From IMG/VR virus record IMGVR_UViG_3300032236_002285, positions 412,237 through 476,236 of that record: a stretch of DNA of 64,000 nucleotides. One strand, written 5' to 3'. The stretch's first letter is position 1. The number at the start of each line of letters is the position of its first letter. Source of the DNA: a virus. This document shows, one piece after another, positions 3,589-64,000 of the stretch. Below the pieces are notes generated by a model. It worked only from the letters and a program-made list of their open reading frames with translations, was not told the DNA's origin and searched no databases. The translations under genes were made by a program, and so were the position numbers.

Positions 3589-5319
3589 TTAAACAGCGGG
3601 TCTGTTTTTAGCATCTATAGTTCCTTTCTTAATAATATTAACAGATTTCAAACCATTGCCATCTATATCATCAGAATAATAAACACCATTTCTATCAAAC
3701 CAACCACCTCTAATAATAGGAATTTCATTTGGTTCGAATATGATATCACCTAAAATAGGATCAAGACCTTTAACATCACTATATGAATAATCAGGATTCA
3801 TGTTAGAAATTGATATATCAGTTTGGTAACTTGAGTTATACATATTTAATTTATTTTGAGCATCGGTCATTGCTTGTGTATGATAATCCTCATTCTTTTT
3901 AGATATAATTTGAATATCAACTGAGTGAATATCTTGTATGCTTGAAAGAGCTCTAATTAAATCTAATTTAGGTATTCTATCAATTCTGGTTAAATTCAAA
4001 AAGTAATCAGAAATAGCTTGTAATATTTGAGAATTAACAGAATCATCTAAAGCATCTGAATAAGACATCACATAGACATTCATCACATAATATGATAAGT
4101 CAGGTGATTTAATTCTATACTTCTTAGTTAATTGTAAGTTACCACCCGCCTTCAAATAAGTATCTATCTTTGATATCTCATAAGCATCTAAACTAAAAGC
4201 CGCAATATCAATCGTAAAATAATCAGAATCTGGACTTTTGAACAATTTAATATTTGGTGTTGCCACTATGAAAATTGTTCCTGTTTGCTCATAAGCATTA
4301 ACATGTGAGAAAACACCTAATTTTTTAATCTCATAAGCATATTGTTGAGGCAAACCTAATACGAAGTTATTAGAAGCAATAGGAAGAATGTTTTTAGTAA
4401 ACATCAAATCCTCTTTATCAGCGCCAAAATTAATATCAGTGTAAATATCAACATCAAATACTTTTGTTATATCTAGTGTGTCACCATTACCATCAAATAC
4501 ATCTTCTACAAACTTCCAATCATTTCTAGTTCTTCTGAAGATATTACCATTAGAACCATTAGTTTTTAAGTAGTTAATTTGTATTACAGAACCTATTGGA
4601 GGAATAGCACCGAATCCACTATTACCAAATACAACATCAATACCACCGTTGAATCCAGTTCTAACAACACAAGCGTTTTCATCTGGAATCATCTCCCAAA
4701 TGTGTTTTTTTATTGACCAATAAACACCATTAACTAAAACTTCAACATTAAAATTTTCGACATCTTGATTAGCTGACTCTGAAAAGTTAAAAGTTTGTAA
4801 AGAAGTTCCATCACCTGTTCTAGTATTTTGAACCCACTCACCTTGAATTATTGGTAAGAAAAATTGATAGTTAGGAGTTATTTTATGACTAACTCTTTCA
4901 GTACCTATATTAAGAATATAACTTAAACTATTAGTTATGTTTTTAATTCTGGTTCTATTTATAATAACAACTCTACCACCTGGTATATCAGTTCCTAAAT
5001 CTACATTACTTTTCAATGTCAGCCTTAATGTACCAGTAGCACTAATAGCTCTACCTGGATTATGACCAGCAAAAATAGCAGCATTTCTAATAATTCTTTC
5101 ATTTATTGAGTTATTATCACCAAGATCAAACTGATTAATAGCATTCTTCAAATATAAGAATGACAACTGATGTAGATTTTCTAAAACAGATAAAATCTGA
5201 CCATAAGGTGATGCAGGACTATAAAGGATGTTGCCTTTATTATGCTCGTTTCTAAGGAAAGTTTCTATATCAGCTTTGATATTTGAGTATGTAATCTGTA
5301 TGAAATTATTTAATGCCAT
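3589..5319 (-). CDS. Baseplate wedge protein, gp6 / baseplate-J-like
   Basis: 576 residues. The N-terminus carries the pattern of T4 gp6/baseplate-J-like wedge proteins: an amphipathic start (IKADIETFLRN, GQILSVLENLHQLSFLYLKNAINQF), then INERIIRNAAIFAGHNPGR and a beta-rich GTLRLTL segment. The C-terminal third has the acidic RIPKLDLIRALSSIQDIHSVDI region seen in this family. In contractile tails this protein forms the dimer that triggers sheath contraction. Same operon as 5331-5663 and 3324-3575. Assigned from motif pattern rather than alignment. Confidence 0.75.
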   Translation of the reverse strand: MALNNFIQITYSNIKADIETFLRNEHNKGNILYSPASPYGQILSVLENLHQLSFLYLKNAINQFDLGDNNSINERIIRNAAIFAGHNPGRAISATGTLRLTLKSNVDLGTDIPGGRVVIINRTRIKNITNSLSYILNIGTERVSHKITPNYQFFLPIIQGEWVQNTRTGDGTSLQTFNFSESANQDVENFNVEVLVNGVYWSIKKHIWEMIPDENACVVRTGFNGGIDVVFGNSGFGAIPPIGSVIQINYLKTNGSNGNIFRRTRNDWKFVEDVFDGNGDTLDITKVFDVDIYTDINFGADKEDLMFTKNILPIASNNFVLGLPQQYAYEIKKLGVFSHVNAYEQTGTIFIVATPNIKLFKSPDSDYFTIDIAAFSLDAYEISKIDTYLKAGGNLQLTKKYRIKSPDLSYYVMNVYVMSYSDALDDSVNSQILQAISDYFLNLTRIDRIPKLDLIRALSSIQDIHSVDIQIISKKNEDYHTQAMTDAQNKLNMYNSSYQTDISISNMNPDYSYSDVKGLDPILGDIIFEPNEIPIIRGGWFDRNGVYYSDDIDGNGLKSVNIIKKGTIDAKNRPAV

Positions 5320-27190: not shown

Positions 27191-28143
27191 GACCCAAATA
27201 AACTATTTAATAAATCATCACGATGTGACTGAACATCTTCAAAACAAGAATACTGAAACCAATTTGAACGATTGTCGTCACCATAAATTAAAACATTTAC
27301 ATAACCATTAGAAATGCTTGTACTACGAACTTCATAATATTGGTCTTTAGTAAGACTTTTCTGACCATAATTATAAACATCATTCAAACACTTTAATCTT
27401 GTTCCTTCAGGAACTTTCATCAACTTAGATATCTTTTCAGAAATTGAACTAATGATATAATCAGAGTTTAATTTTCTAAAATCAATTTTACTATCATCAA
27501 CAATCTGAGCCAAACTACTCAATAACTTACGAGTTACATCAATCTCACGCTTAGGTACACCAGAGAAGTCTAACTCTTTATCTATATACCAACGAACTGA
27601 TGATTCAATTATTGATTGATTTTTGAAATAAGAATAATGTTCTTTACGATCATCATAACTATCATAGACATCAATGTTATTTTCCATGATATAGTTAATC
27701 ATTGGGACAATACAATACTTGAAACCCTCAATATGTTCGTGACTTCTGCGACCAGAAGTTCTACGACCTCTACTAGTTACACTGGGTTTGGAAACCCAAC
27801 GACCATTTAGATAACGATCAAAAGTAGCACCATCATTTAGTATCTCATTGAACTGACGTTGAGTTCTATTAAGTAAAAACTTCTTAAATCTTTCATTGTT
27901 AGTTTGTTCAACTAACATTGGTTTTAATCTACGCCAAGTCATACCTTTCATAACAGGATTAAATCCTGCGTTGAAACAATTAGTTAAAAAAGAACCAAAA
28001 CTAGCAAAGTCACCAAGACCTAACTTGTTCATTGTACCATAACTAACTTGACCCTGCTCATATTCAGATATGATAGGGAATATCTCTTTTGCTTCTTTGT
28101 AAGTTTCTAAGTTCTTTTTAATTAGATCGTAGTTTAACTTCAT
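27187..28143 (-). CDS. Unknown 318-residue protein downstream of RNase P protein
   Basis: Directly coupled (ATGA) to rnpA, so they may act together. Basic, with an Arg/Ser patch (SVTSRGRRTSGRRSHEHIEG) suggestive of nucleic-acid contact, and a long helical second half. Ends HRDDLLNSLFGS, a tag variant. No family recognised; an RNA-related role is inferred only from its partner and composition. Confidence 0.75.
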   Translation of the reverse strand: MKLNYDLIKKNLETYKEAKEIFPIISEYEQGQVSYGTMNKLGLGDFASFGSFLTNCFNAGFNPVMKGMTWRRLKPMLVEQTNNERFKKFLLNRTQRQFNEILNDGATFDRYLNGRWVSKPSVTSRGRRTSGRRSHEHIEGFKYCIVPMINYIMENNIDVYDSYDDRKEHYSYFKNQSIIESSVRWYIDKELDFSGVPKREIDVTRKLLSSLAQIVDDSKIDFRKLNSDYIISSISEKISKLMKVPEGTRLKCLNDVYNYGQKSLTKDQYYEVRSTSISNGYVNVLIYGDDNRSNWFQYSCFEDVQSHRDDLLNSLFGS

Positions 28144-28439
28144 AGTTTAGATATGATTTTAGAAACACTTTTGTTGATCTCATCAAAAGTAGGAACACCT
28201 TCACCGATGTAAACAAAAGCTATATTCTTGTTATTGATTGTTGATTTTCTAACAGATTCTTTCATTAATCTTTTGATTCTATTTCTATCAACAGCTCTTT
28301 TGAACTTCTTAGATGAAACAGCAAAAAGAAAAGAAGTAGATTCAGATTCTAAAACTTTAGCCAATACGATACCATTTGAAACGGACTTACCCCTTTCAAA
28401 AAGTGCATCAATTGATATCTTATTTTTTAGAATATTCAT
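28140..28439 (-). CDS. rnpA: Ribonuclease P protein component
   Basis: 99 residues, slightly short for the family (about 110-130). LFERGKSVSNG (13-23), then FAVSSKKFKRAVDRNRIKRL (39-58) continuing MKESVR: the RNR signature of bacterial RnpA that binds the RNase P RNA and the 5' leader of pre-tRNA. Known role: cofactor of the RNase P ribozyme that matures tRNA 5' ends. First gene behind a consensus Bacteroidota promoter (28444-28474). No RNase P RNA was seen, so it would work with host M1 RNA, possibly changing its specificity. Confidence 0.9.
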   Translation of the reverse strand: MNILKNKISIDALFERGKSVSNGIVLAKVLESESTSFLFAVSSKKFKRAVDRNRIKRLMKESVRKSTINNKNIAFVYIGEGVPTFDEINKSVSKIISKL

Positions 28440-28443
28440 TAAG

Positions 28444-28474
28444 CAAAGATAAGAAATATTTTTGATAAAACAAA
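28444..28474 (-). promoter_or_regulatory. Bacteroidota sigma promoter for rnpA array
   Basis: Minus strand TTTG (28471-28474), 19-bp spacer, TATCTTTG (28444-28451): matches TTTG-N19-TAnnTTTG. The -33 box overlaps the terminator of the ClpP transcript. Confidence 0.8.
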
Positions 28475-28502
28475 AAACCCACCAATTACTTGATGGGTTT
28501 TA
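28472..28502 (-). terminator. Terminator after clpP
   Basis: Minus strand AAAACCCATCAA-gtaa-TTGGTGGGTTTTTTG: long stem with T-run, 16 bp after the ClpP stop. Confidence 0.85.
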
Positions 28503-28517
28503 ATTCTAAAAAAAGAA

Positions 28518-29276
28518 TTACTTCTTTTTCTTATCAGTGCCAGGTACTTGTAAGATTTCTCTTTGATAGTATTCATCGAAACCATCCATTAAAGTTGTGA
28601 TTGAAGATGTTTTATCACTAATGATAATTTCATCAATAAATCCAAAGTCTAATGCTTCTTGTGAATTTAACCACTTGTCTCTACGAGCACTTTCCAAAAC
28701 TTCTTCAAATGATTTACCAGAGTTTTCAGCCAACATCTTAAACAAGATGTAGTTGTACTTTTCAGACTCCATTTGAGAGATACGATTATCTTGAACGTGT
28801 CCTTGAGCACCAGAACTAACTTGGTGAATCATTACTTTAGAGAAGTTCAAAGAAGATCGTTTACCTTTTGTACCAGATGATAGTAAGATAGACCCCATTG
28901 ATGCTGCCATACCAGTATTAATAGTTGCTACATCAGATTTGATATATCTCATTACGTCTACCATAGATAAACCAGATTTAACTGAGCCACCTGGTGAGTC
29001 AACGTGCATTGTGATGTCGCTGTTGTTTAAATTATCCAAGAACATTAACTGAGCTTGAACAATAGTTGACATATTGTCGTTAACAACACCGGCTACCCAC
29101 AAAATACGATCTCTCATTAAACGAGAGAAGATATCCATTTGAGTTACACGCATTTCTCTTTCTTCAAGAATGTATGGTGTCATACTATTCTCCAAGTTTT
29201 TATCGAAATAGTGTAGGTTAAGTGACGAGATACCTTCACTCAAGGCGTACTTTTGAAATTCTTTTCCGTAATTCAT
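28518..29276 (-). CDS. clpP: ClpP serine protease, Bacteroidota type
   Basis: 252 residues. Catalytic triad visible: S126 in GMAASMGS, H151 in MIHQ, D200 in RRDKWLNSQEA. The N-terminal MNYGKEFQKYA and MTPYILEEREMRVTQMDIFSRLM are the Bacteroidota ClpP form, pointing to acquisition from the host. SPGG is preceded by Asp where the host form usually has Asn. Needs an AAA unfoldase (host ClpX/ClpC or a phage ATPase). Last gene of the leftward unit from 31892, ending at a terminator. Possible uses: head maturation or host-protein turnover. Confidence 0.95.
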   Translation of the reverse strand: MNYGKEFQKYALSEGISSLNLHYFDKNLENSMTPYILEEREMRVTQMDIFSRLMRDRILWVAGVVNDNMSTIVQAQLMFLDNLNNSDITMHVDSPGGSVKSGLSMVDVMRYIKSDVATINTGMAASMGSILLSSGTKGKRSSLNFSKVMIHQVSSGAQGHVQDNRISQMESEKYNYILFKMLAENSGKSFEEVLESARRDKWLNSQEALDFGFIDEIIISDKTSSITTLMDGFDEYYQREILQVPGTDKKKK

Positions 29277-32035: not shown

Positions 32036-32308
32036 ATGAATAAGACAGATTTAGTAAACTCGATAGCTAAACAAACAGGTCTATCAAAGTCAAAGTCTAA
32101 CGAGGTTATCAACGCTTTCGTTTCAGCTGTATCTGAATCACTTTCAAAAGGTGAGAAAGTTACACTTGTAGGCTTCGGTACATTTACCACTTCCGAAAGA
32201 GAAGCTCGTAAAGGTCGTAACCCTAAGACTGGTGAAGTTATTAACATCTCGGCTAAAACCGTTGCTCGCTTCAAAGCCGGCTCTGAACTTAGCAAGAGTG
32301 TTAATTAA
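32036..32308 (+). CDS. HU-family DNA-binding protein
   Basis: 90 residues, full-length HU. MNKTDLVNSIAKQTGLSKSK N-terminal helices; VTLVGFGTFTTSEREARKGR; then NPKTGEVINISAKTVARFKA with the NP intercalating tip. Binds and bends DNA as a dimer. Single rightward gene between leftward arrays, with its own terminator, implying high separate expression. Codons are a little richer in G/C than neighbours, fitting a later acquisition. With the H1-like protein it gives the phage two nucleoid proteins. Confidence 0.96.
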   Translation: MNKTDLVNSIAKQTGLSKSKSNEVINAFVSAVSESLSKGEKVTLVGFGTFTTSEREARKGRNPKTGEVINISAKTVARFKAGSELSKSVN

Positions 32309-34977: not shown

Positions 34978-36435
34978 TTATCTACCAGTGACGGTAACAT
35001 TATCAATAATCATATCAGATGTAACTTGATTATGCTTATAGATTGTTATATTATATTCACCAGAAGTAACTGATTCTTTTGATAACTCAAAATAGAATTT
35101 AGTATAAGGTCTGCCATTTGAATTCAATGGAGTGCAACATCCTTTTCTACAAGATTTACCTTGCATCTTATCATCAAAGCCAAAGAAGTTCATAAATCCA
35201 ACAAAGTATTTACTACCAGGATAATAGATTTCACTAGCTGGTATGTTTAAGTAAACTTCATAAATACCTCTTGGTACTTTATCAAAAGACACAGATACTT
35301 CCATATTCATTTTACGGAATGAATTATTATCAGATGTTAATAAACCATCAACTCTAAGACTTGTAAAACCTGAGGCAACCTTAACATTTACATTCTTATT
35401 AGCAATAACTTTAATAGGTGTTGCTTGAACTAATGTGTTTTGAGATTTAGGTTGAACCTTTGTATCATCAAAATCATAATCCATATTGTATATGATTTTA
35501 ATAACCGAATCCATTGTATATTCTACCTTTTTACCATTCTCATCAAAGAATACATAGGGCCATTCAACAGACTTCAATTCTTCTAAAGTAATCATTTTAC
35601 CATTTTCAGAATTAGTCCATTGTTGCCAGATTCTATCAATGTTAGAGTGATGTAACCAAAAAATTGGATCAAAACCAGCAGTTGGTACCCAACCCATTAA
35701 TCCTGTATTAGTAACAGAGTTTGTGATAGGATTGTTAAATTTAAGTAACCCTGTTGTATCATTACCAGCACCAATATAATCATGCATTGCTCCGTGAGGT
35801 GCCGCATTGATATTCATACAAAAAGTATAATAATCTGTATAAGACATTAACTTAGTCATATCTAATGCTCTTTCGATTTCACCAGAGATAGGGTAACCAT
35901 TGTTTAAACTATCATATCTACAAGATTCATATAAAGCTGACTTTGAATCTCTAAACATAACAGGCATCATTTTGTCAGAATCGTTTAAGTTTGTATAACC
36001 CCAATAAGGTAAAGCAAAGTCTTTCTTTCCTGATAATTTTCTTACAATCTTTTCAAAGTGCCAGATATAAAGTCTGTGCCAAACTAAGAAGTGTATTTTT
36101 TCTTTACCAGAAGGTGAGTGAGTACAATTGTCCCAAGCTTCTTTTAAATCAGCTACGGTGCTATAAGATTCACATAAAGGATTCTTACCAATTGAATCTG
36201 GAATCCAGTGCATTGCACCTTGATAGTACCAACTCATTGGATCAGTACATCCTTTCTCTCTCATAATAGTCAAAGCCTTATTCATAGCCTCAATATCTGA
36301 CTGAGCTTCTGTCGAGTTAGCATTCTTTCTAACAAAACGACCTATCTTATTATGTGCGAAGTGAGTATAAACAACACCAGTCATGATAGATAACACCAAT
36401 ATAATGATTAGTGATGAAATTGTTTTTCTATTCAT
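34978..36435 (-). CDS. Membrane-anchored tyrosinase (type 3 copper oxidase)
   Basis: 485 residues. Signal anchor at ~8-24 (SLIIILVLSIMTGVVYT), so the enzyme faces the periplasm or surface. CuA ligands: H76 (AMHW), H106 or H115 and H120 in FLVWHRLYIWHFE. CuB: H214 and H218 (PHGAMHDY) and H262/H263 in DPIFWLHHSNIDRIW. A ~200-residue C-terminal beta-rich domain with a Cys cluster (CRKGCC) follows. Known: oxidises phenols/tyrosine to quinones. Role in a phage unknown; might crosslink surface proteins or pigments. Own terminator and TATATA-type upstream region. Confidence 0.9.
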   Translation of the reverse strand: MNRKTISSLIIILVLSIMTGVVYTHFAHNKIGRFVRKNANSTEAQSDIEAMNKALTIMREKGCTDPMSWYYQGAMHWIPDSIGKNPLCESYSTVADLKEAWDNCTHSPSGKEKIHFLVWHRLYIWHFEKIVRKLSGKKDFALPYWGYTNLNDSDKMMPVMFRDSKSALYESCRYDSLNNGYPISGEIERALDMTKLMSYTDYYTFCMNINAAPHGAMHDYIGAGNDTTGLLKFNNPITNSVTNTGLMGWVPTAGFDPIFWLHHSNIDRIWQQWTNSENGKMITLEELKSVEWPYVFFDENGKKVEYTMDSVIKIIYNMDYDFDDTKVQPKSQNTLVQATPIKVIANKNVNVKVASGFTSLRVDGLLTSDNNSFRKMNMEVSVSFDKVPRGIYEVYLNIPASEIYYPGSKYFVGFMNFFGFDDKMQGKSCRKGCCTPLNSNGRPYTKFYFELSKESVTSGEYNITIYKHNQVTSDMIIDNVTVTGR

Positions 36436-38225: not shown

Positions 38226-39857
38226 ATGAAACATTTAAAACACATACAAGTATTTGAAGCCTTTGAATCTAAGATTCTTAGCAAAACATTAGGTTATATT
38301 AAAGAACCAAATGATAGAGAAAAGTTTTTTGACCAAATCAAAAGACTATGTAATTCTATAGATTATCCTTATTCAGAAATGTCTGATGACTTCTTTGAAT
38401 ATTTACCATTTAAAAAAGCAATCAACAAAGCAGCAATGACTGGTGATGAACCTTGTGAAGCAACTTCAAAAAGTGAATTCCCGGAATATGCGGTAGATGG
38501 AGCTAAGTGTGAAGGTGGTAAACTTAAAAGAAAATGGGGAGCTAGGACAAGAGAGGTAGTTTGTCCAGTTTGTAATGGTACTGGGGTTAAACCAAAAAAA
38601 TCTGAAGTAAAATTAGTTAAATTCTGGTTTACATCAGAAGGTAAATATGTTACTACAACAATTGTTGATGGTGTGATAAGAAGTGGTAAATCTGGTTCTA
38701 AAATATCAACTAGATTATCAGATTATATAGTATCTTCAAATGTTTCGGATATAAACACACTAACCGGTGGTGAAATTGTTAGTGTTAATATAAGAGGTGA
38801 TCAAGTTATTGCCTACATAGTCAAAGAGTATGGTAGATATTTTGCTATACAAAATAAAGTCTCAGGTAGCACACCAAGTTCTTCAAGTTGGAGGTCATAT
38901 GGTAAGTATTCATGGGCTTTAGGTCGTGGTGAATACTCTGATATGAAACTTCTTACAAAAAAACCAAAAAGTAAAGAAGAGGAAGAAGTAGATCCATATA
39001 CTTGGAATGTTGGTGTTAATTTCTCATATGGTCAAGTATCAGTAAATAGTTCAATAGATGTTCAAAATGTAATTAAAGATGCTCACTTTGCTATTGTATT
39101 TGATTATGGTAAATTGAAAAAGTCTGAATTTAAAAATAGAGAAGAAACTAAACAAAAAAGAGAAGAGGCTAAAGAAGGCTCTAAATTAGATCCTAATCAA
39201 TCAGATGTAGAAATAAGAAAAAGAAATATTGAAAGATATGTTAATTTACTTTCTCAAAAGTTAGACATATCGACTGATATAGGAAATTGTAATAGACTAG
39301 TAGTTAGAGCTTTAGGTCATAAAGCTGCTTTATATATTGTTTATGGAACAAACATCTATTCTTATTTAACAAACCTTATCGACTCTTATATGAAGTTTAT
39401 GAAGGCTGATGACAATAATACTAAAAAATCATATGCTGAAGATATATCAGAAAAAACAAATGATATGTTTAAGAGTGGTATGAAAAGAGCTGATAGAGCC
39501 AACGATATTGTTAAAGATGTTAGATCCAAACTTAAAGCAAATAATGCAGATGAAAAATATATTCAATTGTTAGATTTAACTCAAAAACTAAGTGATGCTA
39601 TCTATGATAATATTAAAAACTATCAAATAGATAGTATTGAAGATTTAGAAGTTGTTGCTCAAAAGATTAGCTCAATCAGAAACATTCTTAAATCAGATAG
39701 ATATGGACTAAGTAGATATTTCAATTATTATATTTCTTATGTAGTGGATAATAGACCAGAGAGGGCATATGATTATTTATCAGATCCTTATTATGTAAAT
39801 ATTGATGCTGCCTTAGAAAACTTACCAAGAATAATAACAATTATCTCTAAACTATAA
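38226..39857 (+). CDS. Large late protein with MKHLKHIQVFEAFE motif and zinc site
   Basis: 543 residues. Starts MKHLKHIQVFEAFES. Residues ~78-122 carry Cys (EPCEATS, AKCEGG, CPVCNGTGV), a CxxCxGxG zinc motif similar to 6496. Middle beta-rich, C-terminal ~200 residues helical (SEKTNDMFKSGMKRADRAND). Probably a virion component; family not recognised. Confidence 0.8.
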   Translation: MKHLKHIQVFEAFESKILSKTLGYIKEPNDREKFFDQIKRLCNSIDYPYSEMSDDFFEYLPFKKAINKAAMTGDEPCEATSKSEFPEYAVDGAKCEGGKLKRKWGARTREVVCPVCNGTGVKPKKSEVKLVKFWFTSEGKYVTTTIVDGVIRSGKSGSKISTRLSDYIVSSNVSDINTLTGGEIVSVNIRGDQVIAYIVKEYGRYFAIQNKVSGSTPSSSSWRSYGKYSWALGRGEYSDMKLLTKKPKSKEEEEVDPYTWNVGVNFSYGQVSVNSSIDVQNVIKDAHFAIVFDYGKLKKSEFKNREETKQKREEAKEGSKLDPNQSDVEIRKRNIERYVNLLSQKLDISTDIGNCNRLVVRALGHKAALYIVYGTNIYSYLTNLIDSYMKFMKADDNNTKKSYAEDISEKTNDMFKSGMKRADRANDIVKDVRSKLKANNADEKYIQLLDLTQKLSDAIYDNIKNYQIDSIEDLEVVAQKISSIRNILKSDRYGLSRYFNYYISYVVDNRPERAYDYLSDPYYVNIDAALENLPRIITIISKL

Positions 39858-57310: not shown

Positions 57311-57922
57311 TTATATATTATTATATCCTTCAACGGATTTCACTGGTGGCTTACCAATCTCTTGTAAGAACTCATTTAATCTATCAATGATAATGCTATT
57401 ACCACGAATAACATCGTAATCGTTGAGTAATTCAATCTTATCTTTATCCTTGAATAATTGCCAAATATTATCAACCGGATTATCATAAAGGTAAATATCA
57501 CCACCAACCTGTGGGAAATGTTCTAAAGATCTTAATTGATTATTACAACAATTAAAATAACCACTAACTGATCTAGGAGAACCAACCAAACTAGTTAATT
57601 GATTATGACTACAATCAAAACGATCACCTACCGATTCAGGACAACCTTGCAAACTAGTTAATCTATTGAAAGAGCAATAAAAACTACCACCAACATATTG
57701 AGGAGAACCCTCTAATGATGTTAATTGATTATTAGAACAATAAAAAGTACCAGTAACCTTACCGAACTTTAGTGGTAGCTTTTTTAATCCTTTATTATTT
57801 AAATTAACATTACCATCGACATCAATAGATCCATCCGAGTTTATAGTATAGTTTTTTATACCATACTTTTTACAGATAGCATCAATTTCATTAAATGATT
57901 CATATAGTTTTAAGTATTTCAC
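57311..57922 (-). CDS. Repeat protein, MKYLKLYESF start (GTG)
   Basis: 203 residues from GTG 57922. Four or five repeats of C-S-x-N-x-LTSL-x-G-x-P-x-x-VGG-x-F (for example LTSLEGSPQYVGGSFYCSFN, LTSLVGSPRSVSGYFNCCNN). The ends of both copies match (KPPVKSVEGYNNI). Known as phage LRR-like proteins; the opening motif suggests packaging in the head. Confidence 0.8.
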   Translation of the reverse strand: MKYLKLYESFNEIDAICKKYGIKNYTINSDGSIDVDGNVNLNNKGLKKLPLKFGKVTGTFYCSNNQLTSLEGSPQYVGGSFYCSFNRLTSLQGCPESVGDRFDCSHNQLTSLVGSPRSVSGYFNCCNNQLRSLEHFPQVGGDIYLYDNPVDNIWQLFKDKDKIELLNDYDVIRGNSIIIDRLNEFLQEIGKPPVKSVEGYNNI

Positions 57923-58661: not shown

Positions 58662-59045
58662 TTATTTCAAATCCTTTACTGATAACTTACCTTTAAATAA
58701 ACAACCTTGTGATTCAAAATCTTTTCTTTCAAGTCCTAAACTTGTTAAATAATTAGAAACTTCTTCTAATTTAGAAAGGTCAAATTCAAAAATACTAGAC
58801 ATATATTGTCCATTTTTATCTTTATTAAAACCTAAATTGAACTTATCATTCAACATATCCATTATTTTAACATTTACCTTGCTATCAAGATCCTTGTTTA
58901 ATATTCTTGGCATTCCATTATTTGTGAATACCCAAATAAAAACAGATTCTGCATATGTACCCATAACATTTCTTTTCCAAGATGTTTTAGCACCTGAGAC
59001 AATATCATTGAATAAACCTTCGTTAAATCTTTTTAAGTGTTTCAT
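58662..59045 (-). CDS. Unknown protein with MKHLKRFNEGLF motif
   Basis: 127 residues. Starts MKHLKRFNEGLFNDI, a late-type opening, preceded by a TATATA stretch. Middle has KMDMLNDKFNLGF-type helices; end SVKDLK. A packaging-motif gene embedded in the tag arrays. Confidence 0.73.
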   Translation of the reverse strand: MKHLKRFNEGLFNDIVSGAKTSWKRNVMGTYAESVFIWVFTNNGMPRILNKDLDSKVNVKIMDMLNDKFNLGFNKDKNGQYMSSIFEFDLSKLEEVSNYLTSLGLERKDFESQGCLFKGKLSVKDLK

Positions 59046-63373: not shown

Positions 63374-64000
63374 TTAATACTTTATGAATATATTCGATAC
63401 ATTATCCACTATTAAATAATAAGTGCCTGGTACAAACCAACTAACATCTATTGAACCACAACCCATCGGCATATATTTAGAATACCAGATTCTACCATCT
63501 ATTGACATAATACTTACTTTACTATATTTAGGTAAGGTAACTACTATCTTACTATTAGTAGGGTTTGGATAAAAACTGAATTTAGGTAATTGATTATCTA
63601 CAATAACCAATGGACTACATTCTGTAATAGTATCATATAAAGCATCAAATGCTGTTACTGGCATATTATCATGTGACCAAGATTTCCTTATAGTTGGTGG
63701 CATTAAATCATCATAACACCAACAAATAGAATCACTGGTTGAAACGGTGACATAAGTGGTTAATGTGGCAAGTGTTATTGGTGGGAAAGGTAGTAACACT
63801 TTATATTTAAGTGTGGTATCACCATAAATAGTAAATGTAGTATCTAATAATAAAGTCCTGGCAGCATCACTGGTGAATACAGCCATTTCTACATTTGATT
63901 TACAATTACTAGGGTTGATAATAGTTTCATTAATATAGTAAGCTTGTGAGTAAGCATTTATTGATATTAGTAAACTAAGTAAGGTTAATAGTTTTTTCAT
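63374..64000 (-). CDS. Secreted protein with type IX secretion C-terminal sorting domain
   Basis: 208 residues from an ATG at the window edge. Signal peptide MKKLLTLLSLLISINAYSQ. A ~115-residue exported middle (Cys pairs SICWCYDD, TITECS). From ~138 to the end (FSFYPNPTNSKIVVTLPKY, VSIMSIDGRI, then PGTYYLIVDNVSNIFIKY) is the Por-type sorting domain (TIGR04183-like): YPNP start, G-x-x-x beta strands and GTYYL...KY close. In Bacteroidota hosts it targets proteins to the surface by T9SS. Host-like and unusual in a phage. Confidence 0.85.
   Translation of the reverse strand: MKKLLTLLSLLISINAYSQAYYINETIINPSNCKSNVEMAVFTSDAARTLLLDTTFTIYGDTTLKYKVLLPFPPITLATLTTYVTVSTSDSICWCYDDLMPPTIRKSWSHDNMPVTAFDALYDTITECSPLVIVDNQLPKFSFYPNPTNSKIVVTLPKYSKVSIMSIDGRIWYSKYMPMGCGSIDVSWFVPGTYYLIVDNVSNIFIKY

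Follow-up and report, generated by a model that had tools for sequence, protein, structure and literature searches.

The last gene on a linear virus record of 476,236 bases probably encodes a small exported protein of a Mahaphage-type phage that borrows the type IX secretion system (T9SS) of its host, within a repertoire that, taken together, most likely serves to remodel the infected-cell surface. This reading is built on features evident from sequence, namely the signal peptide, the sorting domain, the phage origin, the repertoire and the preservation of related cargo at a syntenic position in relatives. Phage-encoded T9SS cargo as such is already known, as seen in the accessible text of reports published in 2019–2020 (PMC6949934, PMC7468147).

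A type A sorting domain at the end of a phage record

The window, i.e. the whole stretch of DNA that was analyzed, comprises the last 64 kb of the record. The ATG of the gene described here (the window gene) forms the final three bases of the record, so that its ribosome site, promoter and upstream neighbor lie out of view. Its 208-aa open reading frame coincides exactly with that of the earlier note on this DNA (63374–64000, minus strand) and can be divided into three parts (Table 1).

Table 1. The window gene and its parts (window positions; residues counted from the initiator methionine).
Feature	Position	Strand	Basis
CDS, 208 aa, small secreted protein with T9SS type A sorting domain	63374..64000	minus	
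Sec signal peptide, residues 1–18, predicted cleavage before Gln19	63947..64000	minus	sequence and hydropathy
Cargo part, residues 19–137, orphan, Cys at 33, 93, 95 and 128	63590..63946	minus	without homolog in searches
T9SS type A C-terminal sorting domain, residues 138–208	63377..63589	minus	profiles and PDB relatives

The earlier note had claimed a signal peptide, and the N-terminus (MKKLLTLLSLLISINAYS before the predicted cleavage site, QAYY after it) bears this out: with two lysines and an 11-residue stretch of mean hydropathy 2.7, it is, as judged from its composition, a textbook Sec signal peptide, whose SP-Q pattern is also seen in other phage T9SS proteins. The complete YPNPTNSK...GTYYL...KY sorting domain, likewise claimed and proposed for a check against TIGR04183, held up as a type A domain of 71 residues that contains YPNPTNSK (residues 144–151), GTYYL (192–196) and the terminal KY. 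TIGR04183 matched residues 144–203 with 25.3 bits (E 1.1e-5), or 27.3 bits in a genome search, exceeding its curated cut-off of 23 bits; Pfam PF18962 yielded 25.6 bits (E 1.5e-5), 1.4 bits short of its gathering score of 27. A control profile, built solely from sorting domains that occur in other phages and with the window protein left out, scored the protein at 41 bits, its alignment reaching residue 206 of 208 and thus placing the domain at the extreme C-terminus. In the PDB, entry 7pzj (labeled a lipase) matched residues 127–200, and the isolated sorting domains 8glj and 8glk were matched with an alignment as the query. From the single sequence, AlphaFold predicted six strands at residues 151–207 with low confidence (pLDDT 55–61); its single-sequence model of the whole protein (pLDDT 35) was too poor for a structure search. 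By signal peptide plus sorting domain, the window protein is a predicted T9SS type A cargo, and its display on the surface is well supported by these predictions.

The region between signal peptide and sorting domain is less readily placed. Searches of IMG/VR and phage records returned no relatives of the window protein, and its sole match among GTDB contigs was a Flavobacterium protein aligned over residues 94–198, i.e. mostly the sorting domain. Querying 396 Bacteroidota genomes with the ~120-aa cargo part alone retrieved nothing credible; a single match at E 0.006 contained five stops and was discarded. As the cargo domain is an orphan, the purpose of the protein cannot be read from it.

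A phage origin had also been claimed, and it was confirmed by the baseplate wedge protein of the same record (window 3589–5319), which shares 70% identity across 99% of its length with that of LR745206 (634 kb), 69.5% with that of LR756502 (642 kb), and 39% with those of LR756501 (735 kb) and LR756504 (636 kb); the baseplate scan gave matches with an alignment as the query and none with one sequence. By the identity of this protein, the record falls among the Mahaphages, nearest to the complete genomes of 634 and 642 kb, which suggests that the window gene resides in a phage of this type with Bacteroidota as hosts. Circular genomes of 634, 636, 642 and 735 kb, all complete, have been described in the Mahaphage clade, with Bacteroidetes as predicted hosts (PMC7162821). 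Extending this clade-level prediction, the host would be a member of the Bacteroidetes, a T9SS-bearing phylum. The record itself is a fragment, since it ends at a start codon and its other end lies within the repeat of a collagen-like tail protein. The latter, an (SSG)n protein with a C-terminal chaperone-like domain, is entered midway at record positions 1–2679 (G000, L002), likely owing to an assembly break.

Inspection of the window revealed further features. Many unrelated open reading frames open with a tag resembling MK[HYF]LK.Y..F[NE] (57311–57922 and 58662–59045 on the minus strand, 38226–39857 on the plus strand; also L036, L038 and L142), which recalls a capsid-targeting or other sorting tag, as in T4 internal proteins. 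A long series of small minus-strand frames at 43–62 kb, sharing the C-terminal motif RD.KL..LGI or RDKKIN.IL, is an apparent expanded paralogous family. The window also encodes a tyrosinase with an N-terminal membrane segment (PF00264, 101 bits; 34978–36435, minus) as well as phage genes for RNase P protein, ClpP, DHFR and HU (28140–29276, minus; 1460–1939, plus; 32036–32308, plus).

Sorting-domain proteins in the record and its relatives

The record encodes at least five sorting-domain proteins, the type A protein of the window, which is the one described in the earlier note, and four of type B. The type B proteins carry their domain at the C-terminus, with 41.7–50 bits against TIGR04131 (cut-off 35) and 44.8–53.7 bits against CHU_C (PF13585; cut-off 27). 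Three of them measure 935–987 aa and one 111 aa, and their genes are surrounded by phage genes.

Five related huge genomes (LR745206, LR756502, LR756501, LR756504 and LR756500), which belong to the same lineage as the record, all encode T9SS cargo. Type A genes that exceed the cut-off number one or two per genome; type B genes number four (one of them below cut-off) and three in the two closest genomes and zero in the other three. Among 50 IMG/VR relatives, many of them fragments, type A genes above cut-off were present in 11 and type B genes in one. Four Bacteroidota isolate phages and one Lak phage contained no type A cargo, and some other large phages of the group, e.g. a 597-kb record, had no T9SS cargo at all, which argues that such cargo is not essential. 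The cargo domains are varied and include an M43 peptidase with fn3, PKD arrays, Fib_succ_major and a concanavalin-like domain; the combination of M43 metallopeptidase, fn3 and type A sorting domain was observed in Mahaphage relatives (L132, L133). Searches for a PorP/SprF partner gave 11 in a control Flavobacterium but none in any of the phages, so export would use the host machine.

One shared locus, flanked by a J-domain gene and large tail genes, harbors a type A protein of 186–199 aa in LR745206, LR756502 and one IMG/VR record. Identity at this locus is ~31% for the type A protein vs. 47–67% for its J-domain neighbor, a pattern that looks more like a gene kept despite rapid divergence than like recent debris. 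The window gene lies outside this locus, as its downstream neighbor differs: the latter encodes a 151-aa protein (phrog_3754) without a match in ten related phages.

Beyond these relatives, a single motif derived from the type B alignment identified 224 encoding places in IMG/VR, which suggests that the strategy is common and has largely escaped annotation. Among the best 80 of the 224, 36 fall into one family of ~188 aa, for which Foldseek returned generic Ig-like matches only (with low TM-scores), and 18 into one family of 731–819 aa. One 816-aa member of the larger family carries SprB repeats, which take their name from the Flavobacterium gliding adhesin. A type B cargo of ~817 aa combining SprB repeats (PF13573) with PKD_6 (L158:359–2806; relatives in L172 and L193) resembles, at the level of its repeats, that host adhesin. 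A conserved secreted cassette in phage contigs of IMG/VR consists of one or two signal-peptide proteins without a sorting domain, followed by a ~188-aa type B protein (L224:1033–2773; also L152, L156, L176, L189 and L230–L309). In all 77 readable loci the downstream frame encoded the type B protein, and the ~190-aa upstream proteins (58 distinct) ended exactly in PI.HN (56/58) or PI.HD (2/58), a tail that may serve a split adhesin as a signal for recognition or linkage.

Cargo-free type B proteins and competing explanations

The record and its two closest relatives each encode a protein composed of a signal peptide, a type B domain and almost nothing more (111 aa in the record, at record positions 254936–255271; 116 aa in LR756502; 106 aa in LR745206). 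These cargo-free proteins scored 53.7, 41.4 and 34.6 bits, respectively, against CHU_C, all above the cut-off of 27; against TIGR04131, the LR745206 copy fell below the cut-off (33.4 vs. 35). They are 31–38% alike, each in a different neighborhood. Only two of ~150 type B proteins in 41 Bacteroidota genomes were equally short, one of them a contig-end fragment. The resulting share of 3/12 in phages vs. 2/~149 in bacteria (the bacterial total being an approximate count; Fisher p about 0.003) does not represent three independent events, as the three phages are related, and an enrichment in phages is suggestive only.

Such proteins raise the possibility that phage sorting-domain proteins are decoy substrates, above all the cargo-free ones, which would crowd the shuttle or translocon of the host T9SS, stop the export of host surface proteins, and block gliding and later phages. 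Their occurrence in three sister genomes, their rarity in bacteria and the phage resistance conferred by loss of the host T9SS are consistent with this idea. However, the window protein has 120 residues of cargo, most phage sorting-domain proteins are large, and the relatedness of the three phages and the sub-threshold LR745206 copy count against it as well; we therefore regard it as unlikely. In its broadest form—a large-phage lineage with a standing T9SS-addressed set, in which cargo-free domains competitively inhibit the host secretion machine and thereby disable both gliding and the T9SS-dependent receptors of phages in the course of infection—the proposal is similarly doubtful.

Ig-like domains are frequent in phage structural proteins and some related type A genes adjoin tail genes, as would be expected if the window protein decorated the virion or tail and its Ig-like C-terminal domain merely resembled a sorting domain. 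A Sec signal peptide, however, would take the protein out of the cytoplasm, where virions assemble; moreover, the domain is exactly C-terminal, like that of T9SS cargo, and two sorting-domain classes coexist within one genome. Decoration is hence quite improbable. An equally slim chance is given to a host gene that reached the contig end by chimeric assembly, or that was captured recently and has no function. While the terminal position of the gene and its missing upstream side would fit, its GC content equals that of the window (30.3% vs. 29.8%), four further sorting-domain genes are found in the interior of the record with phage genes around them, and such genes occur in the five related huge genomes, four with sizes published as curated to completion; the chimeric contig end was rejected on these grounds. 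Finally, a chance match, to which the modest scores in single curated models might point, is practically negligible and was refuted by the phage-only profile, against which the real tail scored 43.8 bits vs. 13.6 for the best of 20,000 shuffled tails, and the runner-up among the 428 window frames 9.5 vs. 41 for the window protein.

Relation to known systems and proposed role

Like the window gene, genes of Cryophage encode T9SS type A sorting domains, and this phage has been proposed to hijack the T9SS of its host, perhaps in connection with superinfection (Bellas et al. 2020, PMC7468147). Cryophage, however, is a smaller phage whose cargo comprises endoglucanase, GH39 and PA14 proteins encoded in variable islands (PMC7468147), whereas here a small orphan cargo occurs in a Mahaphage whose five sorting-domain genes span both classes. 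T9SS sorting domains have also been noted near crAss-BACON open reading frames (de Jonge et al. 2019, PMC6949934). As far as the accessible text of that report goes, crAss-like phages share phage proteins with a T9SS sorting domain, but represent other lineages in which the domain is tied to BACON repeats, and type B or cargo-free proteins are not among the reported features (PMC6949934). In light of the Cryophage report and the accessible part of the crAss report, the window gene is a further case of a known kind. For huge phages, Al-Shayeb et al. (2020) mentioned surface-localized phage proteins in general terms, and the word "secretion" is absent from their main text (PMC7162821).

The phage proteins share with Bacteroidota T9SS cargo (type A, TIGR04183/PF18962; type B, TIGR04131/PF13585) the signal peptide and C-terminal sorting domain, and one type B protein of the record has the PKD and Ig_7 domains usual for such cargo. 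They differ in being phage-encoded, in that no PorP/SprF partner was found, and in that some copies are practically cargo-free. A text search of the literature other than subscription papers and preprints returned no phage genome with type B sorting domains; within this searchable literature, the secreted cassette, the cargo-free proteins and the set of type B genes look new.

In the T9SS route, PorV captures the sorting domain after Sec export, the protein passes through SprA, and a sortase then removes the domain. The window protein would accordingly use Sec to cross the inner membrane, where its signal peptide would be cleaved; the host T9SS, with its PorV-type shuttle and SprA translocon, would then take up the C-terminal beta-domain. 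The sorting domain would then be cut off and the ~120-residue cargo displayed on, or shed from, the infected-cell surface, the phage contributing cargo only and the host the secretion machine. With at least five T9SS-tagged proteins in one genome, the phage probably remodels the outside of the infected cell; jointly, these proteins might above all mask or replace T9SS-dependent entry structures of other phages. The earlier note had raised blocked superinfection, altered adhesion and a modified prey interaction as possible consequences of surface display. Actual export, its timing and its purpose (superinfection exclusion, adhesion or T9SS interference) are what we infer. Phage-resistant F. columnare were repeatedly mutated in sprA, gldK, gldM, gldN or sprE (PMC9233685), meaning that T9SS-made structures matter for phage entry in Bacteroidota, and for this reason surface remodeling that limits later infection is favored.

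The T9SS builds a surface on which Bacteroidota phages can depend. Cargo-free proteins would offer a natural entry point for finding a specific T9SS blocker, and a phage stock of T9SS-addressed proteins provides a direct route to testing whether phages rewrite or block the host surface.
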